Positions 4,105 through 42,745 of a DNA stretch of 45,185 nt are shown one piece after another. Origin of the DNA: a virus. The notes below the pieces were generated by a model, which had not been told where the DNA came from, did no database searches, and saw nothing but the letters and a program-made list of their open reading frames with translations. Position numbers and translations under genes: made by a program. Position 1 is the stretch's first letter; each line of letters starts with the position of its first letter. The stretch spans positions 1 to 45,185 of IMG/VR virus record IMGVR_UViG_3300043434_001104; one strand, 5' to 3'.

Positions 4105-5214
4105 TTACAAAGTGCCAGTGAACGATCCACTCATAACAATACCATCGTCAGTATCGTTAATGCCACCAATTTGAGCGGAGAAAGTGAAATCTGCCGTCTT
4201 GTTGGAGCCGATTGAGCTGGAAACGCTCGAAGAATCGAGCTGAGCGTTTTTGATAATATAACGAACAGCTGGAGTAGAAGTTCCTGGTTGGTTGACAGTA
4301 ATCATGATTTGAGTTTTTGGATTAGAGTCCAAAATATTCATCAAACTACCGCTACCAATTTCGTTTTGAACACCATTAAGGTTGATTGTTGCGTTAACTG
4401 GGAAATCAACAGATCGAGTGTATGAAAATCTTGAACCAAGACGCTGAATTTGAGTACGACTCAATGGAATCGACACACTAGCGCTTTGTAGGTGAATACC
4501 GTCTGCGCCGCCAAGTTGACCAAGAATACCACTTGTGCCAAAAGTTCCAAATGTGACAGTGACATCACCAGGACGAAGAGCGGAAACAATACCTGTTTCA
4601 CTTGATGGGGCTGGCAAAACAACTGCGGTTCCGAGAGAGGTTCCGTTTTCTTGGTTAATTGCTGGATTAACACCAGAGTTTGTTCCAGAGATATTGGATG
4701 CGACGATATTTGCAGCTTCAAAACTTACTGTTGCAGTTGGAATTGAACCTACAGCGAACTCGACAGAATAATCTGTCAAATAAGCGTTACCAATGCCAAT
4801 TACTTGTCTTCCAGCTAGACCGCTGGTTCCAGTTGTGGCGTTCAAATCATTGCCTTCTTGAGAGGTGACAATGAAGAAATTACGACCGCTGCCGCCAGTG
4901 ATATGCCCACCGACAAATTGTGGAGCTGCGGTTTCTCCACTTCCACTTGGAATAACGCTGAAACCAATTTCTCGCTCATTATTGCCATTTGTAAGGTAAT
5001 AGCTAAAGTCAAGAGCTACTGTTGGAGCTTCAATAACAATAGAGTCGATTCGGGCAAGTTCACCATATTGGTTAATGTCTTGACGAGCAATATTAAAATT
5101 GTAATTAGCCGACTGAACTCTAGACAGATGAAAGTGATCTGCTGATGCTGTCGATGTGGCTTCTCTACTAACGTAGAGACCTTCTGATTGATAGATTACT
5201 CTGTTTCGTGCCAT
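4105..5214 (-). CDS. Tail tube protein (major tail protein), paralogue 1
   Basis: A 369-residue protein, rich in Ser, Thr, Gly, Asn and Ile and predicted largely beta. A central segment LTDYSVEFAVGSIPTATVSF (about residues 146-165) is almost repeated in the proteins at 19632 (LTNYSLAFQVGSIPTATVSF) and 17907 (LTDYSVNCAVGAIPNVNANF). A later conserved patch is FPVNATINLNG. These three proteins are clearly paralogous. This copy follows the neck-like genes in its operon, where the tube protein normally sits, so I take it as the major tube subunit. The other two lie at the tail-tip end. The tube role is inferred from order, length and paralogy. Confidence 0.7.
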   Translation of the reverse strand: MARNRVIYQSEGLYVSREATSTASADHFHLSRVQSANYNFNIARQDINQYGELARIDSIVIEAPTVALDFSYYLTNGNNEREIGFSVIPSGSGETAAPQFVGGHITGGSGRNFFIVTSQEGNDLNATTGTSGLAGRQVIGIGNAYLTDYSVEFAVGSIPTATVSFEAANIVASNISGTNSGVNPAINQENGTSLGTAVVLPAPSSETGIVSALRPGDVTVTFGTFGTSGILGQLGGADGIHLQSASVSIPLSRTQIQRLGSRFSYTRSVDFPVNATINLNGVQNEIGSGSLMNILDSNPKTQIMITVNQPGTSTPAVRYIIKNAQLDSSSVSSSIGSNKTADFTFSAQIGGINDTDDGIVMSGSFTGTL

Positions 5215-9289: not shown

Positions 9290-12200
9290 ATGCAAGCAAT
9301 TCAATTACCAGTAACTCAAGTAGGTTTAGAGCAAAGTATTCAAGCCGCAATGAAGCGAGCTAGTGGATCTGCTCAAATCAATCTTGGAACAAATTCACGA
9401 CAAATTAACGCTTTGTCCCAACCCTTGGGTAGAATTACTGGTCAAGCTGATGAGTTCTCAAAATCTATGGCAGCAGCTAATGCTCGCGTTCTAGCATTCG
9501 GAGCTTCTGCTGGTATTATCGCTGGAGTATCTAAGGCGATGTCTGGATTGGTAACAAGCACCATCAAGGTGGAAAAAAGTCTTGTAGAAATAAATGCCGT
9601 ATTAAACAAAAGTGGCAGCGAATTAGATAAATTTGGACAGCAGATTTTTAATACAGCAAAAAATACAGGTAAATCTTTTGAAGAAGTTGCCAGCGGCGCA
9701 TTAGAGTTGGCTCGTCAAGGTTTGAGTGCAGAAGATACTATTAACAGATTGAACGATGCTCTTATTCTTTCTAGACTTTCAGGATTGGATGCAGCTCAAT
9801 CTGTTGAAGGTTTAACTGCCGCATTTAACTCTTTTAAAAAATCTGGTATTACAACCGCAGAGATTTTGAACAAAGTTGTTGCTGTTTCTCAAAAATATGC
9901 AGTATCGGAAAGAGATATTATTGAAGGTGTAAAACGCTCTGCTTCAGTTGCTCAACAAGCTGGAGTTTCATTTGAAGAGTTGGCGGCAGTTATTACGGCA
10001 GTTCAGCAGACTACTGCCAGAGGTGGCGCTGTTATCGGTAACAGTTTTAAAACTATTTTCGCGAGAATCCAAAGAAAAGATGTTCTTTCTGATTTGAAAG
10101 GCATGGGTATAGCAGTTGAAGATCTTCAGGGAAATGTATTACCAGCATTAAGAATTTTAGAAAATCTTGCAGCTAAATTAAATAACTTTTCTCAAATTGA
10201 ACAGGCGAGTATTGCCGAAAAACTTGGTGGTGTTTTCCAGTTAGATAAATTATTGGCAGCACTTAAAGATCTTTCTTCTGAAGCTTCGGTAACTTCTGGA
10301 GCTTTAGAGGTGATGGGAAAAGCTGGAAATTCAGCGTATCAGAAAAATGTCGTCTTAAATCAAACTCTCGCTGCTTTATTGAATAAAGTTGCCGTAAGTG
10401 CTGAACAACTTGGCGCAAAACTTGGTGAAATTGGCGTAACAGACAGCTTAAAGAATGTCTTGGGATTTTTTAATGGTCTGCTAGAAGGCATTCAAAAAGT
10501 TTTGGGAGAAGAAAGTGGACTTGGTACTATGGTTCGTGGACTTGTTAAGGGTCTTGGAAATTTCTTGGGTGGTCCAGGTTTGGCTATTTTTGGTGCTATT
10601 ATTCTTAAACTTTCTAAGGATTTGGTGCAGTTTGGATTTGCCAGCTTGAAAACATTCTTTGGAATTGGCAAGGCAGCGCAAGAAGTAAAAAGTGTCGAAA
10701 CAGCAATCTCTCAAATCCTAGCTAAAAACGTAAACTTGCAACAGCAGTTGTTTGCGCTAGAAGGCAATAGAGCTGCTCAATTAAAAGTAATTACTGGAGC
10801 ATTGGTTGAGCAAGAAGCGCTTCTTCGTAGAAGTGCTAATATTTCCTCTGGATTGGCAAAACCTCTTTACAATGTTGGGGTTAGAGCAGGTGGTTCTGGA
10901 TTGCGCGTTGGCAATAGTGCTGATGGCTATATGCCAGCAGTCGCAAAAGAAAGTAAAGCGATCAAACAAGGAGTTGGTGGCGCTCGCGCAGGTGATAAGC
11001 CTGTTGTGATTCCAAACTTTAATTTTGGCGGCGGCAAAAAGGGAACGATGGTTGCACACACTGGTGAGTATGTTGTGCCTAATTTCAATGGAAGTGGCGG
11101 CTCTGCTGTGTTTAATAGACAAATGGTGCAGTCAATGGGATTGCCATCAGGAGCAAAGAAAATTAATGCGGCTGGAGGATTCGTTCCAAATTTTGCAATA
11201 AAAGGGCTAGCTGCAAAAGATTTTGACAAAGAGGGTGGAGGAGAATATAAAATATTAGCTGGGAGAATTTTTGAATCTTTGTTGCGGGGAGAAAATTATA
11301 TAGATTTGACAGAAAATGTAGTTGGACCAGATATAGATAAGGGTAAATTTAAAATTAAAGAAGCTAAAATATCTGGAAAAGCAGCATGGAGAGATCCAAA
11401 TTTTGGCACTGGCAAGCCAAAGGGATCTAATTTGATTTTGCCAAAAACAGCAACTGATGATTTCGATAAAAAATTGATTTTAGAAAAAGGAGCAGATATT
11501 TTTAGATCTCAAATTACTCATCAAAAACTTTTTGGAATTGCAAGAAAAATTATAGCTAGGGAAAGTGTTAAACCAGTGACTAATTTATCACGTATTGAAT
11601 TAGCATCTAACGGTTTTATTCCAAACTTTGCTCCAAAATTCAATGCAGAAACCGTTAGAAAATACGCTGACGAAATTGAAAAATACAAACACCCAACAAA
11701 AGATTTCTACGAATTCCCAGATGGAACTGGTGGTTATGGATCTCAGATAAAAAATGTCTTATCAAGACAACAATCAAAAGCTGTTGCCAATAAGATAATC
11801 AAAGAGAAAAAAATAGAAGATAAGGGATTTTATAATTTAAATGCTGATGAGCTTGGCGGTATTCTTTTAGTTTCTCCTAGATTTGGCAAAAGCCAAGGAT
11901 CATTGGATACTTCGATGCAGATTGGCGAAATTCCATACTTCAATCAAGATAAATCTCCGCCTATTGATAAAAATAAATATATCAAATTAGCTGGCATTAA
12001 AACATCTAATACGCCAAGTGGTAGAGATTTGAAATCTTTAAGAGCGGATGTTAATGAATTATTTTCTGATGGAATTGTAAAACTTGCATATAGATTATAT
12101 GGTGAAACTTTTGACCCTGCAAGCGGAGGAGAGTTTTCTGCAAAACTACAATCTCTAGATGCTTCCAAAAAAGAACAATTGTTACCTCCTGCTGCACAAG

Positions 12201-15200
12201 GAGATTTATTCGAAGCTGCTGGAAAAGTAGCTCTAAATAGTTTTGCGAATTTAGAATCTTTGTTTGGTTCTGGCGAACAAAATAGACCGTTTGATTTCCA
12301 AAATCCAGAAGCATTGCGTAAAGTATTTGGCGTAAATGCCAAAAGAGGTGAAGCCAAGAGAGGAGGAGAGAAAAACTTTAGCTCTTCCAAGCAAGTTCAA
12401 GGAATAATCAAAAAAATATTCAATGATTCAGAGTATGGACAAAGCGCAGTTCAATCCCTGAAGAATCAAGGAGCGTTTAATTTTTCTAAGGCACAAAAGG
12501 CAGCGCAAGCGAAAAATGCTTTTGGAGGTTTTATTCCCAATTTTGCTCAAACGGGCCAGCTTATTGGCAGTGGGCAAGAAAGCGATGTGTTTAGAAAGGG
12601 CAATAGAGTAATTAAATATTCAAAAGGCGACGAAAGACAAGCGTCAGAAAAAGCACAGTTGAATAAAGCGATGAACTGGGCGGCTGCTAAAAACCAGCTG
12701 AATAATATTTATAAAGATGGAAAATTGAGAATTCTTCAAACTTTCCAAAGACAAGGTTTTTCTGTGCAAGCATTTGCTGGAGAAACGGGGGCAACAGTTA
12801 TTAAAGATAAATTAAAAGCATTTAAATTATCAGATTTGATTGATAGAAAATTTGAAGAAGCGAGAAATCGTAATACACAAGAACCAGACTGGCTAGCTCC
12901 ATTGTTTTTTGATCCTGATCCACGTAATTTTACTTTTTTAAATGGTGTAAAAGGAGATATTAATAGAGCATCTGTAGAGGAAATATTTAACGCTAATAAA
13001 TTTGGTCTTATTGATATGGGAGTTTATCCTTTGAGATTGCCTGATATAAAGAAAAGAGCTGCTGGCGGCTTCCTTCCCAACTTCGCCAATCCACTCCAAG
13101 CAGCAGTAGGTCGCGAAATGGCTGCTGGTGTTCCTGCTTCACAAATTTATATTGATAAGAGTCCTGCGTTGAAGAATGCGGCAAACCCTATGGGTTTGAT
13201 GGTTGCCAATCGTCGTGACGAACCCGCTGGTGGATTCCAAGGTATTAATCGCGCCAGAAGAGAAGGAGCTAATCCAATGACGTATGGTGCTGCTGGTGGG
13301 TTTGTGCCTAATTATGTCGCCGCAGTTCCAGCTCAACACCAAGCGGCAGCGTATGGTAGACCAGCAGCTTCTTCTACTGCAAATGATAAAGCAGCATCAG
13401 GTGCTGGAAAAACCCTTGTAGCTTTAGTTGCTTTCCAAAGCGCTGTTTCTGTTTTGTCTGGATTTTTAGAACAAGCGGGAGACGGCGGGAAAAAATTAGC
13501 AGAAACTCTTCAAAAGGTAGCGACAACTGCTTTGATTTTTGGAGGTATTGCTTTTAGCGATCCAATCAAAAAATTAAAAGAGTTCGCTGATGAGCTTGAA
13601 AAAACAAGAAAAGCAGCTAGAGATTCAGCAACAGATGGCTATTACAAAGGATATAGAAGCGGAAGAGCTGGAGAATCAACTGACAAGTTAAACCTCATGG
13701 GAAAAATAGGTGGCGGTGTTGGCCGTGGGGTAACATTTGCTAGAGACACAGCTTCAAATGCTTATGGTTTTGTTCGCAATAAAGCAGCTGGAGCGGCAAC
13801 TGCGTTTGCTAGCACCAACATTGGAGGAAAAGTTATTGGTTTCGGTCGAGGAGTAGGAAATTTCGGTCGAGGAGTAGGAGCTGTCGGTGGTTTTGTTGGT
13901 CGAGGAATAGGAGCTGCTGGCGTTGCTGCTGGTGGTCTTCTTGGACCCATAACTCTTGCTGTTGGCGGATTTAAAGCTGTTGGTGAAGCTCTTAGTGGTT
14001 TTAGAACTTTTTCAAATTCAGCCGCAAAATCATTAGGAGAAATGTCTGTATATGCTGCCAAGGCATCTGAATCTTTGTCTGAATTAGATAAAACCGCTAT
14101 AGAGGCAGAAACTAACAGAAGATATGGAGTAACAGGGGGTACTCTGTTAGGTTCAATTGCTGACATAACTGGAGCTTCAGCTATAGCCTCTGGAATTACT
14201 GGACGACAAATATCTAATACTAGTTATCGAGGACGAAATGTTGAGCTATCAAATGTATCAGAAGATACATTTAAGCAAATTGAAAAAGCCTTTATTGCTT
14301 CATACGTTGGAGCTAATAGGACTAAGTTTGCAACAGCAGAAGATGCTGCTGGCGTAGCAGCAGCGGAATTTTCTAAGAAATTCGCAGATGGTTTTGATGA
14401 ATTCGATGCAGAATATATTAAAAATGATATTAAAGAATTAAGCGAAGAAGCTCAAAGATTTAGAAAAGATAATGCTGTAGCAGAAGCGCTAAAACAAGCA
14501 AAAATACAATCTGAATTAGCAGCAAGAGACGTAATTAATTTTAATAATGTTCTAGGAGATAGCGCAAATAAGATTATTCAATTAAAAGCAAAAGTATTTG
14601 AACTAAAAAGTTCTAATGAAATATTCAAGGCTCTGTCAGAAGCTGGCACTGAAAATGCTATTAATTTGTCAGAATTTCAAAAAGTTGCCCAAAAACTTGG
14701 AACAACCTTGCAATCTTTAGATGCTTCAAAAGCAGTTCAGGAATTAGATTTATTCACAAAAACAACTGAAAATATAGATAATATTGTAAGAACGAATCTT
14801 AAAGATTTAACTGTCCAAGATGTAGGTTTAGGTGAAGTATACTCGAAGATTAAAACCGATATTCTTTCTGGTGATTTAGAGAGAATAAATGCAGTAATTG
14901 CCAATCCCGCTAAAGCAAGCGATCTTATTAGATTATTTGGTCAAGATTATAGAACCGTTTTGCAAGATCTAACTAAAGAGTATGCTAATCAAACAGTAGA
15001 AATAAAAAACCAATTAAAAGAGGCTCAAAACAATGCCAATATAGAAGCATACCGATCAGCACTAGCACAACAAACAACATCTGCGCTTGAGAATCAAACC
15101 AAACAACTTGATTTGCAAAAATTAAGTTTTGAAAAAATGTCAGAGTATGCTGACAAAATTAGAGCATCGACAAGTAAAATTTCCGATTTAAATTTCGAAA

Positions 15201-17905
15201 AAGGTTTAATAGGTGCAACTCAAAGACAAAGACTATCAGCTCAAATTTCTAGAAGACCAGAGCTAGAGGCCAGAGCTAGAAAAGAATCTTTAAGGAATTT
15301 TCAAAAGGATAGAATTAGTTCGGTGCAGTCTTTGGAGAGTTTAATACCATCTACATTGAGTTCAGAGTTGCAGTTTAGTTTAAAGACTGGTATTTTAGAA
15401 GCCACAAAAAGCATTAGAAAGCAAAATACTTTAGATAAAGTTGCTGAAGAAGCTAATAAAAGATATGCGGAAACCGTTCAAGAAATAAATAAAGCCGTTA
15501 AAGAAGAAACGACAGAAAGAAGCCGTTTTATTGATCAAATACAAGATTCTTTGACTAATGGGAGCATTAAATTTGAAAGTTCGGTAGTTGGAGCAGCTCA
15601 AGAATTTGCTAGAATAATAAAAGCATCAAGTCTGGCTCCAAAAGAGGTGGAATTAAAAGATTTGCAATCTAAAAAAGCAGAAGCTCAAAAAGACCTTGAA
15701 TCAAGAAATGTAGCGATAGAAAAATATTTGTCAGACAGAGATAAATATATAAAGAAATTTGAAAAAGGAAATCCTGGTCAAAAAAGTCTTATGCGGGATC
15801 TGCCATTTGAAAATGATTCAGAGTATTTAAAATTGACTGGCAATTTGGATAAATCACAGCAATCTTTTTTAGACTTAAATACTGCAATTGCAGAATTAGA
15901 AAAAAGGATAAAAGAATTTGTTCCAACGCCAACATTTATGCCTTCTAGTGTGATTCCACCGCTTCTAAAAAGAAAATTGGAAACTCCCGAAACCAAACCT
16001 CTGCCGACCAGTCCACCAGAAGGAACGGAAGATCCTCTTGAAGCAGCTAGATTGGAAGAAAAAGCTTCTCTACTTGAGATCGCCAATACAACTGAAAACG
16101 CAGCCGATGAATTGCAAAAACTTACTAGCGTCTCAAGAATACTAGCCGATGAGTTCATGCAGCTAAAAGATGGTATACCTGCTGCCATCGCTGCAATTAT
16201 ATCACAAAGAAATAAATCAATCTCTGGAGCAGAAATTCTTGGCGCTAACTATGATTTAGAAACAAATAGACAGTTAGCTGGTGCAAAAACACAAGAAGAG
16301 TATGAAAAAATCACAAGAGACCGTCAAAACAAAGGCATTGGACAACTCTTCGCCGAAGAATATGGTAAAACACCAGAAGAACAAGCTTTAGACTTGAAGA
16401 AAACCATCGTAGATGGTTCTGTTCAATTCAAAAACAATATGATCGAAGCAATTATGGGCGCTGCCGAAGGCACATCTAGTCTCAAAGATGGCTTGCGTTC
16501 TGCTGCTTACGAATTCGTAAAAATGATCAACCAAAAAATGATGAGCAACTTGGTTGACAAGCTCGTCGGTGGAAATGTTCAGAGCGGAACAGGTCAAACT
16601 AGTGGTGGATTAATTAATTTCTTCTCCAACATGTTTGCTTCTGGCGGCAAAGTAACTGGCGGTTCTGGCACTAAAGACGATGTTCCTGCAATGCTTATGG
16701 GCGGCGAATATGTCGTGAATAAGAGAGCTGTAGCAAAGTATGGCCCACAATTCCTAGAAGCCATCAACAATGGCACGCTCGCTGGATATGCTAAAGGTGG
16801 AACTGTGCAAAGAGGTCCTCAAGGAAACTTCTATACTCCAGGAACTTTTGGTCAAGGAGCTATCAGCGGTAAAAGAAACCTTTTGGATTTCGCAACCCAA
16901 AGCGGCACAACTGGTAAATATGATCAAATGGTAAATGAATCGGGCTTTCAAGCTATTCGCTTGGAACCAGAAAGCAATCGTTTGAGCTTTTCTGGCATGA
17001 GAAACTCGCCTATGTTCGAAGTTACTCAGTCAGCAAAACAACAAGCTTTTGATTTGTATCTCCAACAATATAACGCTGAACAAGAAGCTCGTAGACAATC
17101 TAAAGCGCAGAAAAAAGCTTTGACAAATCAGTTGCTGATGCTCGCTGGATCTGTCGCTTTAGGTGGACTTGGCAAAGTGGCAATGACTGGAGGAAAAGCC
17201 GCTCTTGGCTCACTTGGATCAAATGCTACACTTGGACAAAAAGCAATGGCATTCCTCAAAGGAGCGTGGAGTGGTGGAAATGTTGCTGGAACAAATCAAA
17301 TGGCTGGTGGATTAAAAAATCTATTTACTGGTAATTTTAATACTGCTTTTAGATCTGGCACGGTATTGAAAGCTATTGGGCTTGATGATGGATTGCAAAT
17401 AAAAAGTAGAATTCTAATGCCAGATAGAAATTCAATGTATAAAAATATATATCCTATTCCTACTGGCGATGGAGCAGACACAGAGGCATTTAATATGCTA
17501 ATAGGTGAGCGTTATGCTACTGGCGGCATGATTCCATCTACTTCTGGTATCGACACTGTTCCAGCTATGCTTTCTGGTGGAGAGTTTATCATGAATAGAG
17601 CAGCGGTTCAAAACATTGGCGCAGGTAATCTTCGCTCGATGAACTCTGGAGCTGCATCTGTCACTTCAGAAGAAACAAGCAAAGATTTGAATGCCCAACT
17701 TATCGCTAAACTCGACGAACTGATTCAAGTTTCGGGGTCAAGTGGCGACATCAACATCAATGTTTCTTCTTCTGGTGATTCAAGAGAACAATCCTCAACT
17801 CAAGATGGATCGTCGCAAAGACAACAATTGGCGAGACAAATCCGCGATGCTGTGTTGCAAGTCATTCAAGAAGAAAAACGCATAGGAGGCACTCTAAGAA
17901 GATAA
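9290..17905 (+). CDS. Giant tail tape measure protein with embedded cassette domains
   Basis: A 2,871-residue tape measure protein that sets tail length (about 430 nm at ~1.5 angstrom per residue, if all residues span the tail) and is usually ejected with the DNA. Residues ~85-370 match the phage tail tape measure domain (hallmark RGGAVIGNSFKTIFARIQ). Hydrophobic segments lie at ~425-455 and ~1540-1570. Residues ~570-1340 contain repeated (G)GFxPNFA-type motifs that separate inserted domains: two with PD-(D/E)XK-like residues and one kinase-like. Residues ~1620-2250 are largely coiled coil. GEYVVN-type tape measure motifs occur at ~592, ~2472 and ~2764. The C-terminus is Ser/Gln-rich. The next gene starts 1 nt after the stop. 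The inserted enzymatic-looking domains are unusual for a pure ruler. Confidence 0.92.
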   Translation: MQAIQLPVTQVGLEQSIQAAMKRASGSAQINLGTNSRQINALSQPLGRITGQADEFSKSMAAANARVLAFGASAGIIAGVSKAMSGLVTSTIKVEKSLVEINAVLNKSGSELDKFGQQIFNTAKNTGKSFEEVASGALELARQGLSAEDTINRLNDALILSRLSGLDAAQSVEGLTAAFNSFKKSGITTAEILNKVVAVSQKYAVSERDIIEGVKRSASVAQQAGVSFEELAAVITAVQQTTARGGAVIGNSFKTIFARIQRKDVLSDLKGMGIAVEDLQGNVLPALRILENLAAKLNNFSQIEQASIAEKLGGVFQLDKLLAALKDLSSEASVTSGALEVMGKAGNSAYQKNVVLNQTLAALLNKVAVSAEQLGAKLGEIGVTDSLKNVLGFFNGLLEGIQKVLGEESGLGTMVRGLVKGLGNFLGGPGLAIFGAIILKLSKDLVQFGFASLKTFFGIGKAAQEVKSVETAISQILAKNVNLQQQLFALEGNRAAQLKVITGALVEQEALLRRSANISSGLAKPLYNVGVRAGGSGLRVGNSADGYMPAVAKESKAIKQGVGGARAGDKPVVIPNFNFGGGKKGTMVAHTGEYVVPNFNGSGGSAVFNRQMVQSMGLPSGAKKINAAGGFVPNFAIKGLAAKDFDKEGGGEYKILAGRIFESLLRGENYIDLTENVVGPDIDKGKFKIKEAKISGKAAWRDPNFGTGKPKGSNLILPKTATDDFDKKLILEKGADIFRSQITHQKLFGIARKIIARESVKPVTNLSRIELASNGFIPNFAPKFNAETVRKYADEIEKYKHPTKDFYEFPDGTGGYGSQIKNVLSRQQSKAVANKIIKEKKIEDKGFYNLNADELGGILLVSPRFGKSQGSLDTSMQIGEIPYFNQDKSPPIDKNKYIKLAGIKTSNTPSGRDLKSLRADVNELFSDGIVKLAYRLYGETFDPASGGEFSAKLQSLDASKKEQLLPPAAQGDLFEAAGKVALNSFANLESLFGSGEQNRPFDFQNPEALRKVFGVNAKRGEAKRGGEKNFSSSKQVQGIIKKIFNDSEYGQSAVQSLKNQGAFNFSKAQKAAQAKNAFGGFIPNFAQTGQLIGSGQESDVFRKGNRVIKYSKGDERQASEKAQLNKAMNWAAAKNQLNNIYKDGKLRILQTFQRQGFSVQAFAGETGATVIKDKLKAFKLSDLIDRKFEEARNRNTQEPDWLAPLFFDPDPRNFTFLNGVKGDINRASVEEIFNANKFGLIDMGVYPLRLPDIKKRAAGGFLPNFANPLQAAVGREMAAGVPASQIYIDKSPALKNAANPMGLMVANRRDEPAGGFQGINRARREGANPMTYGAAGGFVPNYVAAVPAQHQAAAYGRPAASSTANDKAASGAGKTLVALVAFQSAVSVLSGFLEQAGDGGKKLAETLQKVATTALIFGGIAFSDPIKKLKEFADELEKTRKAARDSATDGYYKGYRSGRAGESTDKLNLMGKIGGGVGRGVTFARDTASNAYGFVRNKAAGAATAFASTNIGGKVIGFGRGVGNFGRGVGAVGGFVGRGIGAAGVAAGGLLGPITLAVGGFKAVGEALSGFRTFSNSAAKSLGEMSVYAAKASESLSELDKTAIEAETNRRYGVTGGTLLGSIADITGASAIASGITGRQISNTSYRGRNVELSNVSEDTFKQIEKAFIASYVGANRTKFATAEDAAGVAAAEFSKKFADGFDEFDAEYIKNDIKELSEEAQRFRKDNAVAEALKQAKIQSELAARDVINFNNVLGDSANKIIQLKAKVFELKSSNEIFKALSEAGTENAINLSEFQKVAQKLGTTLQSLDASKAVQELDLFTKTTENIDNIVRTNLKDLTVQDVGLGEVYSKIKTDILSGDLERINAVIANPAKASDLIRLFGQDYRTVLQDLTKEYANQTVEIKNQLKEAQNNANIEAYRSALAQQTTSALENQTKQLDLQKLSFEKMSEYADKIRASTSKISDLNFEKGLIGATQRQRLSAQISRRPELEARARKESLRNFQKDRISSVQSLESLIPSTLSSELQFSLKTGILEATKSIRKQNTLDKVAEEANKRYAETVQEINKAVKEETTERSRFIDQIQDSLTNGSIKFESSVVGAAQEFARIIKASSLAPKEVELKDLQSKKAEAQKDLESRNVAIEKYLSDRDKYIKKFEKGNPGQKSLMRDLPFENDSEYLKLTGNLDKSQQSFLDLNTAIAELEKRIKEFVPTPTFMPSSVIPPLLKRKLETPETKPLPTSPPEGTEDPLEAARLEEKASLLEIANTTENAADELQKLTSVSRILADEFMQLKDGIPAAIAAIISQRNKSISGAEILGANYDLETNRQLAGAKTQEEYEKITRDRQNKGIGQLFAEEYGKTPEEQALDLKKTIVDGSVQFKNNMIEAIMGAAEGTSSLKDGLRSAAYEFVKMINQKMMSNLVDKLVGGNVQSGTGQTSGGLINFFSNMFASGGKVTGGSGTKDDVPAMLMGGEYVVNKRAVAKYGPQFLEAINNGTLAGYAKGGTVQRGPQGNFYTPGTFGQGAISGKRNLLDFATQSGTTGKYDQMVNESGFQAIRLEPESNRLSFSGMRNSPMFEVTQSAKQQAFDLYLQQYNAEQEARRQSKAQKKALTNQLLMLAGSVALGGLGKVAMTGGKAALGSLGSNATLGQKAMAFLKGAWSGGNVAGTNQMAGGLKNLFTGNFNTAFRSGTVLKAIGLDDGLQIKSRILMPDRNSMYKNIYPIPTGDGADTEAFNMLIGERYATGGMIPSTSGIDTVPAMLSGGEFIMNRAAVQNIGAGNLRSMNSGAASVTSEETSKDLNAQLIAKLDELIQVSGSSGDININVSSSGDSREQSSTQDGSSQRQQLARQIRDAVLQVIQEEKRIGGTLRR
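11198..11611 (+). other. Tape measure inserted domain 1, PD-(D/E)XK nuclease-like
   Basis: Residues ~637-774 lie between two PNFA motifs. They contain GRIFESLL (E662), GPDID (D681) and KEAK (E691, K693), in the order and spacing (E, PD, x9, ExK) of PD-(D/E)XK nuclease folds. Seen: the residues. Inferred: the fold and activity. Confidence 0.45.
11633..12523 (+). other. Tape measure inserted domain 2, PD-(D/E)XK nuclease-like
   Basis: Residues ~782-1078 lie between PNFA motifs. They contain GDLFEAAG (E975), RPFDF (D1002) and GEAK (E1021, K1023), again an E, D, ExK order with 18 residues between D and E. The ~190 residues before this are of no recognised family. Fold and activity are inferred. 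Confidence 0.4.
12548..13057 (+). other. Tape measure inserted domain 3, protein-kinase-like
   Basis: Residues ~1087-1256 show, in order, a glycine-rich loop IGSGQESDVF (G1093, G1095, V1100), the VxK lysine (VIK, K1109), a catalytic-loop-like FDPDPRNF (D1208-x4-N1213) and a DFG-like IDMG (D1242). These are the core residues of kinase-fold phosphotransferases. The classical H of HRD is replaced by F. The domain is short (~170 residues), like minimal kinase domains in phage polyvalent proteins. Confidence 0.6.
13841..13882 (+). repeat. Tandem 21-bp repeat inside the tape measure gene
   Basis: Two copies of a 21-nt unit beginning TTCGGTCGAGGAGTAGGA (13841 and 13862), encoding FGRGVGN then FGRGVGA, within a glycine-rich hydrophobic segment. 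A third looser copy (GGTCGAGGAATAGGAGC) follows. This suggests recent local duplication. Confidence 0.8.
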
Positions 17906-19631: not shown

Positions 19632-20741
19632 ATGAAACCAATCTTAAAAAGCAATTCGTCATTTCTTGCAGTCAGCCCATCTCCAGCTTGGACAACTGGA
19701 CAGCAGAGTGGATACTTCATGCCTTTAATTCAAGGCTCAGAAGTGTCAATTTCTTTAGAGAGACAATCTTCTAAATCGGTTGGATCTAATGCGTATGCAG
19801 TTAATGATTTAGTTAGGTCTCCAAATGTTTCGTTCAATATTAATTATTTATTTTCACCATATCTAGTTAACGAAAATTTATTTGGCATATCGTCGCCAAC
19901 TACTGGAGTGGGTAAATATATAGCGTCTGGAATGTCCGATAGGGATCAAAATTTTTATTTGATTATAAATGATAAAGACGGTGAAGATGTTTTAAAAAAT
20001 TTTACAGGAACTTTACCTAGAACAAATTTCAGCGGCATGACATGTATGGCAGTAGGAAATTGTTTCTTGACTAATTATTCGCTTGCATTTCAAGTAGGGA
20101 GCATACCAACAGCAACAGTATCATTCGATGCTTCCAACTTGCAAATGACTAATTTAACTGGCTCAAGAGTTAGCATTCCAGCTATAAATTTACAATCTGG
20201 CAATAATACAAATTCTGGGTTTTTAGATTTTTCTAATTTGCAAACATCTCTATCTGGCTATGCCAGCGGATTCTCTGGCAGCAAACCAAATGTATACAGA
20301 CTTCCAGTTTTATCCCCACAGGGAATCAATGCAAGTTTAGATAACTTGCAAATGGGAGGGCCAGTTCTTGTTAGTGGGGCAATTCTTCAATCAATAAATC
20401 TTTCTGTACCATTCGAAAGAACCGATTTGTATGGGTTTGGCAGCAACCATGTATATGGAAGGAAGTTGCAATTGCCAATCAATGCGACCCTTGATTTAAG
20501 CGCTTTGATAACAGGATTTTCAAGCGGAAACCTTCATCTTATTAATCAATCAGAGGCATTTTATAATTTTGACATTACCTTTATAGATCACTTAAAAACT
20601 TCTTCTGGAAGACTTGAAGTAAGAGGTGCGAAACTAAATTCAGTCTCTCACTCTATGCAGGTAAATGGATCTATGGATTTCAATGCAAACTATTCAATTT
20701 CAACAAACGAGCTTTCTGGAATCAGAATGTTTAGATTGTAA
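19632..20741 (+). CDS. Tail-tube-like tail-tip protein, paralogue 3
   Basis: A 369-residue, beta-rich protein, the same length as the tube protein at 4105-5214. The two share LTNYSLAFQVGSIPTATVSF (here) versus LTDYSVEFAVGSIPTATVSF, and LPINATLDL versus FPVNATINL. Located at the tail-tip end of the operon, it could form a specialised tube ring or baseplate tube-like hub. It ends only 3 bp from a convergent gene with no terminator hairpin seen between. The role is inferred from paralogy and place. Confidence 0.65.
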   Translation: MKPILKSNSSFLAVSPSPAWTTGQQSGYFMPLIQGSEVSISLERQSSKSVGSNAYAVNDLVRSPNVSFNINYLFSPYLVNENLFGISSPTTGVGKYIASGMSDRDQNFYLIINDKDGEDVLKNFTGTLPRTNFSGMTCMAVGNCFLTNYSLAFQVGSIPTATVSFDASNLQMTNLTGSRVSIPAINLQSGNNTNSGFLDFSNLQTSLSGYASGFSGSKPNVYRLPVLSPQGINASLDNLQMGGPVLVSGAILQSINLSVPFERTDLYGFGSNHVYGRKLQLPINATLDLSALITGFSSGNLHLINQSEAFYNFDITFIDHLKTSSGRLEVRGAKLNSVSHSMQVNGSMDFNANYSISTNELSGIRMFRL

Positions 20742-26647: not shown

Positions 26648-28300
26648 ATGACAAGAGAAAAATACTACTGGTTAAATGAAGACTCCATTAAGTTTTTGGA
26701 GCAAGGTTATCTTAGCGAAGGGCAATCTCCTATCGCAAGAATTCAAGAAATCGCTAATGCAGCTCAAAATATTCTCGGCATCGAAGGATTCGCTGACAAA
26801 TTTATTGACTACATGTCTCGCGGTTTTTACAGCCTATCCACTCCAGTGTGGATGAATTTCGGCAACGATAGAGGCAATCCAATTTCTTGCTTTAATAGCC
26901 ATGTCTCTGACAGCATTGAAGCATTTTTAACAAAGCAAGCTGAAGTTGGAATGATGACCAAAGTTGGCGGAGGTACTTCTGGTTATTTTGGTGACATTCG
27001 CCCAAGGGGTTCGAAAATTTCTACAGGCGGTATTGCAGAAGGAGCCGTTCGCTGCATGGAGCTATTTGATAACGTAGCAAAGATCATTAGCCAAGGAAGC
27101 GCACGCAGAGGCAGTTTTGCGGCGTATCTACCCATTGATCATGATGACTTTGATGAGTTTATGAAGATTCGCTCTGAAGGTCACTCTATTCAGGAGATGT
27201 CTATCGCTGTCACAATTCCTGAAGGGTGGATGCAATCAATGATTGATGGCGACAAAGAGAAAAGACGTAGATGGGCTTCGGTAATTAAAAAGCGTTCTGA
27301 AACTGGTTATCCATACGTATTCTTCACAGATAACGCCAACAACCAAGCTCCTCAAGTTTATAAAGACAAGGGATATAAGATCAATGCGAGTAACCTTTGC
27401 TCTGAGATTTTTCTACCATCAACTAAAGACGAGTCGTTTGTTTGTTGCTTGTCTTCTTTGAATTTGCTTTGGTGGGATGAGATTGAAAAGACTGATGCTG
27501 TTGAAACAATGGTGATGTTCTTGGATGCTGTTATGACAGAATTTATCGAGAAGACTAAAGGTAATCGTCTGATGGAAGCTGCTCATAATTTTGCAAAAAA
27601 TCATAGAGCATTGGGTATGGGAGTTCTTGGATATCACAACTACCTGCAATCAAAAATGATTGCATGGGAAAGCATGGACGCGCATTTTGAGAATATCTCA
27701 ATTTTTTCAGAAATCAGAAAACGTGCTGACAATACATCAGAAAAACTCGCAGCAATGTTTGGTGAACCAGAAGTATTAAAAGGTTATGGTCGTCGCAATA
27801 CTACAACTATTGCTATTGCACCCACTACGAGTTCCAGCTTTATTCTTGGTCAGGTGAGTCCTAGCATTGAGCCTCTCAACAGCAACTACTTCGTTAAGAA
27901 TCTTGCCAAAGGTCAATTTACTTACCGCAATCCAAAACTTGAAGAAGTTCTGAAATCCAAAGGTAGAGATGATAAAGAAACTTGGAAGAGTATTCTACTC
28001 CACGGTGGTAGTGTTCAACATCTCGATTTTCTCACAGAACATGAGAAAGATGTTTTCAAAACATTTGCAGAACTCTCTCAAAAAGAAGTTGTGATCCATG
28101 CTGCTCAACGGCAACCATATATTGATCAGGGGCAATCTCTCAATCTCATGATTCCTGCTGGCACAAAACCAAAAGAAATCAATGAGTTGATGATCTTTGC
28201 GTGGGAGCAAGGCATTAAATCTTTGTATTACCAAAGAAGTTCCAATCCATCTCAAGATCTAGCTCGATCAATTTTAACATGCTCTAGTTGCGAAAGTTGA
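26648..28300 (+). CDS. nrdA: Ribonucleotide reductase large subunit, class I, no ATP cone
   Basis: A 550-residue catalytic subunit. Active site features: SCFNSHV (first redox Cys), NLCSEI (N, radical Cys, E), FVCCLSSLNL (second redox Cys area), SLYYQRS (Tyr pair of radical transfer) and a C-terminal CSSCES (CxxC that passes electrons from thioredoxin or glutaredoxin). The protein begins close to the catalytic barrel, so the N-terminal ATP cone that mediates dATP inhibition is missing; full-length cellular enzymes are ~750 residues. Loss of the cone would keep dNTP synthesis active. Cotranscribed with the small subunit. Confidence 0.95.
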   Translation: MTREKYYWLNEDSIKFLEQGYLSEGQSPIARIQEIANAAQNILGIEGFADKFIDYMSRGFYSLSTPVWMNFGNDRGNPISCFNSHVSDSIEAFLTKQAEVGMMTKVGGGTSGYFGDIRPRGSKISTGGIAEGAVRCMELFDNVAKIISQGSARRGSFAAYLPIDHDDFDEFMKIRSEGHSIQEMSIAVTIPEGWMQSMIDGDKEKRRRWASVIKKRSETGYPYVFFTDNANNQAPQVYKDKGYKINASNLCSEIFLPSTKDESFVCCLSSLNLLWWDEIEKTDAVETMVMFLDAVMTEFIEKTKGNRLMEAAHNFAKNHRALGMGVLGYHNYLQSKMIAWESMDAHFENISIFSEIRKRADNTSEKLAAMFGEPEVLKGYGRRNTTTIAIAPTTSSSFILGQVSPSIEPLNSNYFVKNLAKGQFTYRNPKLEEVLKSKGRDDKETWKSILLHGGSVQHLDFLTEHEKDVFKTFAELSQKEVVIHAAQRQPYIDQGQSLNLMIPAGTKPKEINELMIFAWEQGIKSLYYQRSSNPSQDLARSILTCSSCES

Positions 28301-39564: not shown

Positions 39565-40190
39565 ACGACCTACTAAGATTTAAGAAAGATCAGAACTACA
39601 TTGTTTTTGATACGGAAACAGAAGGATTGAACTTGGTATACTCTAGACCTTGGCAAGCTTCTTGGGTTATTTGTCGCGGCAACAATATCATCTCTAAACA
39701 CGATCACTTTATTCGCTGGGACAATATCAACGTATCTCCTGATGCTGCCAGAATTACAGGCTTCAACAAGGAGAATTACTACAGAAAAGCAGAAGACCCA
39801 AAAGAAGTTTTCCTAAAACTAAATAAGTACTTAAGCGATCCTTCTTTTCTTGTGATTGGACAAAATCTGCTTGGTTTCGACGTTTACATGGTCAACATTT
39901 GGCGCAAACTTCTTGGTATGAATAGCGACTACTCCTATATCAATAGGATTATTGATACAAAATCAATCTCAACTGCCATCTTCAAACAGATTCTCCCCGA
40001 TAAGGAAAATTTTCTATCTTGGCAATATAAGATGCTGCATATTCGCGAGAAAGGTCTAAAAACAAACCAAGCATTCATGCTTAAATACTACGACATTCCG
40101 CACGATCCAAAACGCCTACACGATAGTCTCTACGATGTAGAGATGACTTTCGAAATCTTCAAAAAACAAATCTTTAATATTGACCTATGA
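39561..40190 (+). CDS. DEDDh 3'-5' exonuclease (proofreading)
   Basis: A 209-residue exonuclease. Motif I FDTETEGL (D and E), motif II VIGQNLLGFDVYM (D) and motif III HDSLYDVEMTFE (H and D) are all present, as in PolIII epsilon and PolC exonucleases. It should remove misincorporated nucleotides for the adjacent polymerase subunit. It starts with ATGA overlap on the PHP gene and ends with ATGA overlap on the polymerase gene, so all three are likely translated in fixed ratio. Confidence 0.9.
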   Translation: MNDLLRFKKDQNYIVFDTETEGLNLVYSRPWQASWVICRGNNIISKHDHFIRWDNINVSPDAARITGFNKENYYRKAEDPKEVFLKLNKYLSDPSFLVIGQNLLGFDVYMVNIWRKLLGMNSDYSYINRIIDTKSISTAIFKQILPDKENFLSWQYKMLHIREKGLKTNQAFMLKYYDIPHDPKRLHDSLYDVEMTFEIFKKQIFNIDL

Positions 40191-42745
40191 TTGAACAATT
40201 CTCACATTACGAATCCCCATTTCCAGCAGGGGTAAAACTTCCTAAAATCCAAATCGAAAAGCGTTATTACCAACAGCTTGGTATTTCTGATGATATTTCA
40301 AATTTTGAATTTTTGCGCCGCATTTGCTTCGAGGGAGTAAAGAAGCGTGGTATTCTTGAATATCCAAACAAAGAAAAATACTTTGAGAGGCTCAAGATGG
40401 AGCTTTCTATTTTTGAGGAGTTAGGTTTTATTGATTATGTTTTGCTGAATTGGGACATCATCAACTTCTGCCATGAAACTGGTATTCCTACGGGCGCAGG
40501 TAGAGGCTCAGCACCTGGAAGTTTGGTGCTATACGCTATTGGCGTAACTAACATCGACCCAATCAAACACGATTTATTCTTCGAACGATTTGTATCTAAA
40601 AGTCGCGCTCGCAAAATTGAACATAACGGAGAAATCTTTTTAGATGGATCTTTGCTGTGCGATGTTGATAACGACATTAGCTACGACAGACGACAAGAAG
40701 TGCTAGATTACATCAATAAAAAATACGCTGGCAAAACGTCCAAAATTCTCACGCTGAATACTTTGAGTGGCAAACTCTGCATCAAAGAGTGCGGAAAGGT
40801 CGTTAGCGAAATGTCAGAGTCTGAAGTGAATATCGTCAGCGATAGCATTCCTAAAAAATTTGGCAAAGTAGCTAAATTGGAAGTAGCCTATCAAGAAAGC
40901 GAAGCTTTCAAAGAGTTTGCGAATAACAACAAGAAAGTTTATCGCATTGCCAAAAAACTCGAAGGCTTGAATAAAAATGTCGGCGTTCATCCATCTGGAA
41001 TCGCTATTAGCTATTACCCTTTGGAAGAAGTGATGCCCGTGCAAAACACTGGAGAAGAGGCTTTGGTTTCTGGATACGACATGAACAATGTCGCAGAATT
41101 GATGGTTAAGTTCGATATTCTTGGTCTGCGCACGTTATCTGTTGTCAATGATGTTTGCAAGCAGATTGGCTTGAATGCTCACGATATTGATGTTGAGCAT
41201 CCATCTATTTATGCAGCGCTGCAAACTCTTCAAGCTCCCAAAGGACTCTTCCAGATCGAGGCTGATACAAACTTCAAAGTAGCTCAGAAAGTTGCACCTC
41301 AAAATCTAGAGCAGCTTTCTGCTGTGGTGGCTATTGCAAGACCTGGGGCATTAGACTTCTTGGATAAGTATGCAGAATACGTGAGAACAGGAGAGTCGCA
41401 ATCTATTCACCCGTTCTTTGACGATGTATTGTCCTATACTGGTAACATTCCTTTGTTTCAAGAGCAGTTGATGAAGATGGCTGTAAAAGTAGGATTCAAC
41501 CTAGACGAAGCTGAACAGCTCCGTCGAATCGTCGGCAAGAAAAAAGTCGATAAGATGGCAGAATGGAAAGATAAGATCTCTCAAAAAATCAAAGAGAATA
41601 ATCTTGATCCAGTAATCGGCGATGTGCTATGGAAAGTCGCAGAAGACTCCGCAAACTATTCGTTCAATAAGTCTCACTCGATGGCTTACGCTTATCTTGC
41701 AGCAACTACTGTTTATCTGAAATTCAACTATCCTCAGCAGTTCTTTTTGAGCCTACTAAAATTCGCGCAGTTCGAGCCTAATTCTCACGAAGAAATCCTC
41801 AAAATCTCTCAAGAGCTTTCTTCATTTGGCATCAAGCTGCTTCCGCCAAGCCTCACGAAATCTGAAATTGATTTTTCTATTGAAGGCAGTGACATTCGTT
41901 ATGGCTTGAATACAATCAAAGGAGTATCCACCAAATCGCTGGAAGCATTGCTTGAATTTCGCGAGGGAGCATTCCCAAACAAGTATGAGGTGTTCATGGC
42001 AGCAAAACAAGCTGGAGTAAATATCGGATTGGTATCTGCTTTGATTCAAGCTGGTCTATTAGATAGTTTTGTCGAAAAAGATCGCTGCCGTTTGGTATTA
42101 GAGGCTCAAACATTTAACGTGTTAACAGAAAGAGAAAAAAGAAACTTGGTAGCGCTCGGAGAAAAATACAATTACAATCTTTTGGAAAGCATTAACGATT
42201 GCGTTAAAAACCAATTGGTTGGAGACGATAACAAACCAATCTTCTCTGCAAAAAGATTCGAAACATTCAAAACAAAATATCAACCCTACCGACAAATCTA
42301 CGATCAAAATAAAAAACACATTAAATATGCAAATTGGTTCTTTGAAAGCAAGCTGCTTGGCTACAGTTATTCGCAAAACATTCGCGAAGTCTTTAAAGAT
42401 GCGAGCCAGTCTCACTTCGTATCTTCTCAAGATCTTCATTCTGTTGATAACAATACCACTGTTTGCTCTGTTGGTTTTGTCGTGGACTCTATCTCTAGGA
42501 CTAGCGCTAGCGGCAATAAGTATGCTCGTATTGACATTGCTGATGAGCGGGGCAATATATCAATGCTACTTATGGACAATTCGAGAGAAGCTAAACTCAC
42601 AAGTTTTCTCAACTCTGGTAAAAAAATTCCTAAAAAAGGAGAAGTCGTGATTGGTATTGGTCAAAAAAATAACGACATTATTATGCTTGACAAGCTCGTT
42701 CTTTTAGAGGATAAAATTTACATGAAGCTCTCTGAGCTGAAGTAA
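40187..42745 (+). CDS. PolIII alpha polymerase core
   Basis: An 852-residue C-family polymerase lacking its own PHP domain. GAGRGSAPGSLVLYAIGVTN then DPIKHDLFFERF is the hallmark palm region; DSLLCDVDND carries catalytic D159 and D161; KFDILGLRTLSVV has the third Asp. KGLFQIEADTN, IARPGALDFLDKY and SFNKSHSMAYA are further conserved palm/fingers motifs. The C-terminus includes an OB fold (VGFVVDSISRTSASGNKYAR then IDIADERGN). E. coli DnaE is 1,160 residues, the difference being the missing PHP and part of the tail. The phage carries its own replicative polymerase. Confidence 0.93.
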   Translation: MIEQFSHYESPFPAGVKLPKIQIEKRYYQQLGISDDISNFEFLRRICFEGVKKRGILEYPNKEKYFERLKMELSIFEELGFIDYVLLNWDIINFCHETGIPTGAGRGSAPGSLVLYAIGVTNIDPIKHDLFFERFVSKSRARKIEHNGEIFLDGSLLCDVDNDISYDRRQEVLDYINKKYAGKTSKILTLNTLSGKLCIKECGKVVSEMSESEVNIVSDSIPKKFGKVAKLEVAYQESEAFKEFANNNKKVYRIAKKLEGLNKNVGVHPSGIAISYYPLEEVMPVQNTGEEALVSGYDMNNVAELMVKFDILGLRTLSVVNDVCKQIGLNAHDIDVEHPSIYAALQTLQAPKGLFQIEADTNFKVAQKVAPQNLEQLSAVVAIARPGALDFLDKYAEYVRTGESQSIHPFFDDVLSYTGNIPLFQEQLMKMAVKVGFNLDEAEQLRRIVGKKKVDKMAEWKDKISQKIKENNLDPVIGDVLWKVAEDSANYSFNKSHSMAYAYLAATTVYLKFNYPQQFFLSLLKFAQFEPNSHEEILKISQELSSFGIKLLPPSLTKSEIDFSIEGSDIRYGLNTIKGVSTKSLEALLEFREGAFPNKYEVFMAAKQAGVNIGLVSALIQAGLLDSFVEKDRCRLVLEAQTFNVLTEREKRNLVALGEKYNYNLLESINDCVKNQLVGDDNKPIFSAKRFETFKTKYQPYRQIYDQNKKHIKYANWFFESKLLGYSYSQNIREVFKDASQSHFVSSQDLHSVDNNTTVCSVGFVVDSISRTSASGNKYARIDIADERGNISMLLMDNSREAKLTSFLNSGKKIPKKGEVVIGIGQKNNDIIMLDKLVLLEDKIYMKLSELK

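Follow-up and report, generated by a model that had tools for sequence, protein, structure and literature searches.

The motif-bearing tape measure protein

The DNA examined here, referred to as the window, is the whole 45,185 nt stretch covering positions 1 to 45,185 of the IMG/VR virus record IMGVR_UViG_3300043434_001104. Among its tail genes is a very long open reading frame (ORF; 9290–17905, + strand) for a tape measure protein of 2871 aa, in which copies of a short motif, GGFxPNFA, separate an array of sequence blocks or cassettes. A preliminary description of the window, made from the sequence alone, had taken this ORF for a tape measure gene, and matches to the Pfam domain PhageMin_Tail (PF10145, E-value 9.5e-32, aa 122–314, 9653–10231) and to the PHROG tape measure family phrog_4211 (1.1e-46) bear this out. 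The next gene encodes a minor tail protein (phrog_290, 7.4e-8).

The array, all on the + strand, begins at motif 1 (AAGGFVPNFA, aa 627–636, 11168–11197), where about 90% identity to relatives switches to unrelated sequence. It continues with the variable cassette A, which has a PD-(D/E)XK signature (136 aa, aa 637–772, 11198–11605), motif 2 (SNGFIPNFA, aa 773–781, 11606–11632) and the near-constant block B (~296 aa, aa 782–1077, 11633–12520), which includes a nuclease-like core (aa 968–1046, 12191–12427). Motif 3 (FGGFIPNFA, aa 1078–1086, 12521–12547) leads into cassette C, variable and with kinase-like residues (170 aa, aa 1087–1256, 12548–13057), and motif 4 (AAGGFLPNFA, aa 1257–1266, 13058–13087) into block D, a constant spacer-like element (67 aa, aa 1267–1333, 13088–13288). 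The array ends at motif 5 (AAGGFVPNYV, aa 1334–1343, 13289–13318). Ahead of it, a constant segment (aa 574–600, 11009–11089), the same in the relatives L124 and L125, contains the motif-like sequences IPNFN (~574) and VVPNFN (~597). All of these motifs, and the block lengths, were as the preliminary description gave them. Two hydrophobic segments resembling membrane helices by hydropathy (aa 1375–1394 and 1540–1558, 13412–13963) lie directly past the array, and aa 1351–2300 are motif-free and divergent among relatives.

The protein has five motif copies, whereas 20,000 shuffles of it average 0.0001 (at most one per shuffle), which rules out chance recurrence. It had been proposed that the motif be sought in the tape measure proteins of other phages, and a degenerate DNA pattern for GGFxPNFA matched at least 119 stretches from IMG/VR. 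When 50 records were inspected in full, the matches were on one strand, those with listed positions were clustered in one region, and reversed-pattern controls were near zero. Removal of duplicates left a working set of 101 ORFs, 49 of them complete and with lengths of 1776–4473 aa, each containing 1–12 motifs with the first mostly at aa ~540 or ~630. A relaxed form of the motif occurred 355 times in these 101 distinct ORFs and 0 times in their reversed sequences; the ORFs were picked for having the motif, and the meaningful contrast is that of the repeated copies. One of the longest cassette arrays was found in L132, with a tape measure ORF of 4452 aa and at least 10 motifs, while L032 and L064 have a single stretch of 1504 aa between two motifs, far above the usual cassette length.

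A slightly narrower pattern gave 33 matches in 84,980 cellular genomes. Only L157, L176 and L187, on contigs binned with bacteria, were tape measure ORFs and the other matches are apparently due to chance. Matches to the window protein in isolate phages were distant and confined to the N-terminus, and no homologue of block C or D was found in the isolate phages of the collection searched. An assembly artefact is unlikely, as the same architecture is present on independent contigs.

Over about 250 distinct copies, G-[FY]-[IV]-P-N-F-A is near-invariant and the flanks are variable. Copies within one gene agree in codon usage at a frequency of 0.600, near the 0.554 expected as background, which indicates that the conserved entity at the joint is mainly the peptide, not a DNA site. 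A DNA-level recombination site was therefore rejected as the main cause of motif conservation.

Exchange of cassettes at the motif

As the preliminary description had anticipated, the sequences between motifs differ between relatives that are otherwise 85–98% identical over the N-terminal half. L124 and L125 share ~85–95% identity with the window over most of aa 1–600, block B and block D, and their A and C positions hold sequence that is unrelated or barely alignable to that of the window. In all three, the alignment reads ...KKINAAGG[FL][VI]PNFA, followed by unrelated sequence and then by [AS][GN]GFIPNFAPKFNAETVRKY....

ORFs whose N-termini are similar (77–98% identical) were compared in 22 pairs, which yielded 77 points where similarity starts or stops. 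The median distance from these switch points to a motif was 4 aa, against 49 for the null, and 83% were within 15 aa of one, against 19%. The contrast includes a bias, in that a conserved motif beside a swapped block always lengthens the match by a few residues, and the 22 pairs share members and are not fully independent.

Individual pairs show the joints directly. Up to residue 1043, L085 and L144 have 96.8% identity. There, L144 continues with GGFIPNFAYKQAVMGLEESMSG, whereas in L085 GGFIPNFASMISS is followed by a 136-aa block, SGFIPNF, a 52-aa block and EGFIPNFAYKQAVMGLEESMSG. The single GFIPNFA motif of L144 is thus interrupted in L085 by 202 additional aa, a GNAT-like cassette among them, and, read from the two sequences, two cassettes were gained or lost in frame at a single motif. 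In L028 and L135, the N-terminal regions are 98% identical and block D is 95.7% identical, while the first and second cassettes are entirely different and the number of cassettes also differs. On these alignments, whole blocks are exchanged, gained or lost among relatives precisely at the motif peptide. A survey of mosaicism in phage proteins found that tape measure proteins looked mosaic, but no genuine recent case could be confirmed (PMC10684548). The pairs described here are recent cases, with exact joints, of the kind missing from that survey.

Nuclease-like and kinase-like blocks

The preliminary description saw enzymatic-looking motifs in at least three blocks. Residue signatures were recovered in A, B and C, but none of the window's own blocks matches an enzyme family in Pfam or PHROG. 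In block A, E662, D681 and E691-x-K693 have the classical PD-(D/E)XK spacing and are kept in its one homologue, in L045. Block A is replaced in L124 and L125 by unrelated blocks that also have PD-(D/E)XK patterns, FFDLSGDNEVKT (largely kept in L096) and AVDGFIKKSNSIKLLEVKSG, respectively. Over 326 blocks, which are partly redundant, the pattern was found 43 times in the forward sequences, compared with 6 in reversed and 7.7 in shuffled sequences.

Block B is ~92% identical between the window and L124 or L125, and its C-terminal core has homologues in 57 of the 101 ORFs. Only G, F, E, D and K are invariant in 29 diverged sequences of this core, and the residue at position −2 from the K is acidic; in the window these are G971, F974, E975, D1002 and E1021-x-K1023. 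Blocks A and B can hence be described as PD-(D/E)XK nuclease-like by residue signature only. On its distribution, B is a near-constant part of the array, not variable cargo. PDB sequence matches of the nuclease-like block to lectins were short and repeated and were not considered credible.

Cassette C contains a set of kinase-like residues, namely the GxG G1093-S-G1095, the lysine K1109, the D-x4-N D1208-x4-N1213 and the D-x-G D1242-x-G1244. When it was aligned with the kinase-like block of L124 and L020 (three sequences), these residues were among the 23 invariant columns. The block at the C position of L124 and L020, of which L154 carries a third copy, is kinase-like and different from that of the window, and L125 has an unrelated 164-aa block there. 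For cassette C, no Pfam match was found, a PDB profile search was empty, as was a search of the collection for its relatives, and the Foldseek matches, to APH(2'') aminoglycoside phosphotransferases, were non-significant (E 0.76). The kinase-like assignment is thus made at the level of residues only. Block D, an element of 67–77 aa found in 60 of the 101 ORFs, appears to be a constant, spacer-like part of the array and not variable cargo. The view that the array is modular stands for the variable cassettes, in which neither a continuous coiled coil nor conserved non-modular content was seen; B and D are both near-constant.

Cassette repertoire of the family

Sets of 99 and 83 representative cassettes were scanned against Pfam. 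Matches above the cut-off were obtained for GNAT (PF00583, best 7.1e-8), SNase (PF00565, 9.2e-5) and the cytidyltransferase-associated HIGH_NTase1_ass (6.1e-8). The block inserted in L085 also matched GNAT above the cut-off (7.1e-5), over part of the profile only. In L176, one cassette matched DUF7178 (1.4e-17) and another ART-PolyVal (PF18760, 1.2e-5), the latter at 26.6 bits and below the 31.2-bit cut-off. Matches to P-loop/AAA families among the scanned cassettes were weak. L176 (1233–3533) is a tape measure ORF fragment on a contig from a bacterial bin, and a second ART-like block was recognised in it by eye. Several cassettes thus resemble host-takeover enzymes, namely GNAT, ART-PolyVal, SNase-like, nucleotidyltransferase-associated and P-loop types. 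Neither a match to HNH, GIY-YIG or LAGLIDADG nor a hydrolase of the cell wall was seen in the scanned cassettes. Sequence clustering gave about 107 cassette groups besides the two constant blocks, which is an overcount as some blocks are cut off by the border of a locus and there is overlap between some loci.

Other features of the window

The stretch before motif 1 (11057–11170) resembles two MLxGGE[YF]V..N..AV...G repeats located towards the C-terminal end of the protein (16652–16819 and 17507–17689), and the GGFxPNFA joint may therefore derive from a tape measure repeat. No sheath gene was found in 9 related records, hence the tail is probably non-contractile. Two 369-aa proteins that flank the tail genes, at 4105–5214 (− strand) and 19632–20741 (+ strand), look paralogous (~28–30% identity, seen via relatives). 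Elsewhere in the window are genes for the large subunit of a ribonucleotide reductase (58% to a Sinorhizobium phage) and for a protein resembling DNA polymerase III alpha, at 26648–28300 and 40187–42745.

Interpretation of the array

The reading we favour, and consider somewhat better than even, is of the tape measure protein as a scaffold bearing a docking array, from which exchanged enzyme cassettes are delivered with the DNA as early host effectors. It starts from the family of motifs, the exchange at the motif and the enzyme-family matches of some cassettes, all of which are observed. Under this proposal, GGF[I/V]PNFA would be a protein-level joint between independent domains. The basic array would consist of the near-constant, nuclease-like B and the small constant D, and further enzyme cassettes would be exchanged, inserted or lost at the joints through recombination between phages. 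The protein would travel in the phage tail, probably a non-contractile one, with the cassettes packaged in the tube in a folded or refoldable state, and would exit with the DNA. The cassettes would then be in the host from time zero and work there as early effectors, those with nucleases in host DNA degradation or counter-defence, and those resembling kinases, acetyltransferases or ADP-ribosyltransferases in the modification of host proteins. It is established that tape measure proteins of other phages exit the tail together with the DNA and arrive at the envelope (PMC13277306), and it is from this, together with the enzymatic repertoire and the pattern of exchange, that we infer time-zero cargo. 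A stronger form, in which the protein is a standardised, motif-jointed effector rack and an evolvable injection platform, with GGFxPNFA as both loading and exchange joint, is put forward more tentatively and is somewhat less probable than not.

Several points weigh against delivery of enzymes. No predicted structure backs the enzyme assignments in the window. When the inter-motif blocks were modelled with AlphaFold, as the preliminary description had suggested, block A gave a pLDDT below 50 and cassette C, for which three sequences were modelled, a pLDDT of 40 and no usable fold. Block B was modelled mostly at a pLDDT of ~80–92 and had no significant Foldseek match in PDB or BFVD. In B, D1002 and E1021 are 19 residues apart and separated by a predicted helix, a spacing unusual for PD-(D/E)XK enzymes. 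Most cassettes are without any Pfam match, and those with one are a minority. In addition, tail-tube lumens are narrow and folded domains of 15–35 kDa may not fit.

The alternative that survives best is a sub-variant of the favoured reading in which the motif is a processing site, cut by a phage or host protease to free the cassettes in the virion or on entry. The motif has a near-invariant hydrophobic and proline core and is not simply a flexible linker, the cassettes end a few residues from the motif, and separation of parts has been proposed for polyvalent proteins (PMC5512222). However, no protease gene is tied to the array, and a linker or docking role accounts for the same data. To our knowledge, the motif is also unlike known prohead-protease sites, and we regard processing as unlikely.

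It is less probable still that the cassettes work during passage of the DNA, in the envelope or on the ends of the phage DNA, rather than on host physiology. Such a role would suit a nearly constant nuclease-like block and an array that directly precedes the membrane-like segments, but no part in DNA passage suggests itself for the cassettes that resemble GNAT, kinase or ART.

We think it very improbable that the cassettes are mobile selfish elements, such as homing nucleases or intein-like insertions, that persist for their own spread. Nuclease-like domains are enriched here, and homing endonuclease genes interrupt the tape measure genes of other phages (PMC10448857). The cassettes, however, keep the reading frame and have borders formed by a peptide that is conserved at the protein level, many are kinase-, GNAT- or ART-like and not nucleases, and block B is a fixed part in 57 ORFs. 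The joints read GGFxPNFA, with no intein splice residues. Equally improbable is that the blocks are structural, tuning tail length or filling the tube and merely evolving fast, as the length variation expected of tape measure proteins and the divergence of the motif-free aa 1351–2300 would allow, since the divergence is all-or-none at the motif beside blocks that are 90–98% identical, the invariant residues are active-site-like ones and several blocks match enzyme families.

Relationship to known systems

Scaffolding and delivery of enzyme cassettes would relate the array to the polyvalent proteins of phages and conjugative elements (Iyer et al. 2017, PMC5512222), which have many enzymatic domains per polypeptide and are thought to enter with the DNA. 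The array would share this, and the repertoires appear to overlap (ART, GNAT, kinase, nucleases), with one cassette here matching ART-PolyVal below the cut-off. The comparison draws on cassettes from across the family that match GNAT, ART-PolyVal, SNase and nucleotidyltransferase-associated models, whereas the several putative enzymes in the window itself are residue signatures only. Cassette-like recombination was suggested for polyvalent proteins in that study, in which the word 'tape' occurs 0 times and tape measure proteins are not mentioned. Here, by contrast, the carrier is a tail tape measure protein, one conserved peptide separates the cassettes and exchange at that peptide is seen directly.

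Sle1 and its relatives (PMC13277306) are likewise related to tape measure proteins, packaged in a tail-like particle and equipped with exchangeable functional domains, but they belong to bacterial contractile injection systems and have one C-terminal functional domain, whereas this is a phage protein with an internal array of cassettes. Polymorphic toxin systems (PMC3482391) also combine a constant carrier with swappable effector cassettes; here the swapping is internal, at several joints, and not confined to the C-terminus. Tape measure proteins with peptidoglycan hydrolase domains, for example those of SPbeta-like phages, some with a 'lytic transglycosylase' annotation, also have internal enzyme domains and a distant N-terminal homology (~25% identity) to the window protein, but those domains act on the cell wall, a type not seen among the cassettes scanned. 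We know of no motif-bounded array in these hydrolase-bearing proteins. No published description of the GGFxPNFA motif or of the array was found in the literature searched, the coverage of which mostly excluded subscription papers and preprints.

The exchange, gain and loss of whole blocks among relatives, with joints precisely at the peptide, suggest that the tail also serves to deliver host-takeover enzymes, in a set that can be reconfigured. Delivery of the cassettes would make the tape measure protein a further route for injected effectors, and GGFxPNFA a sequence tag with which to find such effectors in metagenomes. The family would then offer about 100 mostly unclassified candidate domains for host takeover or counter-defence.

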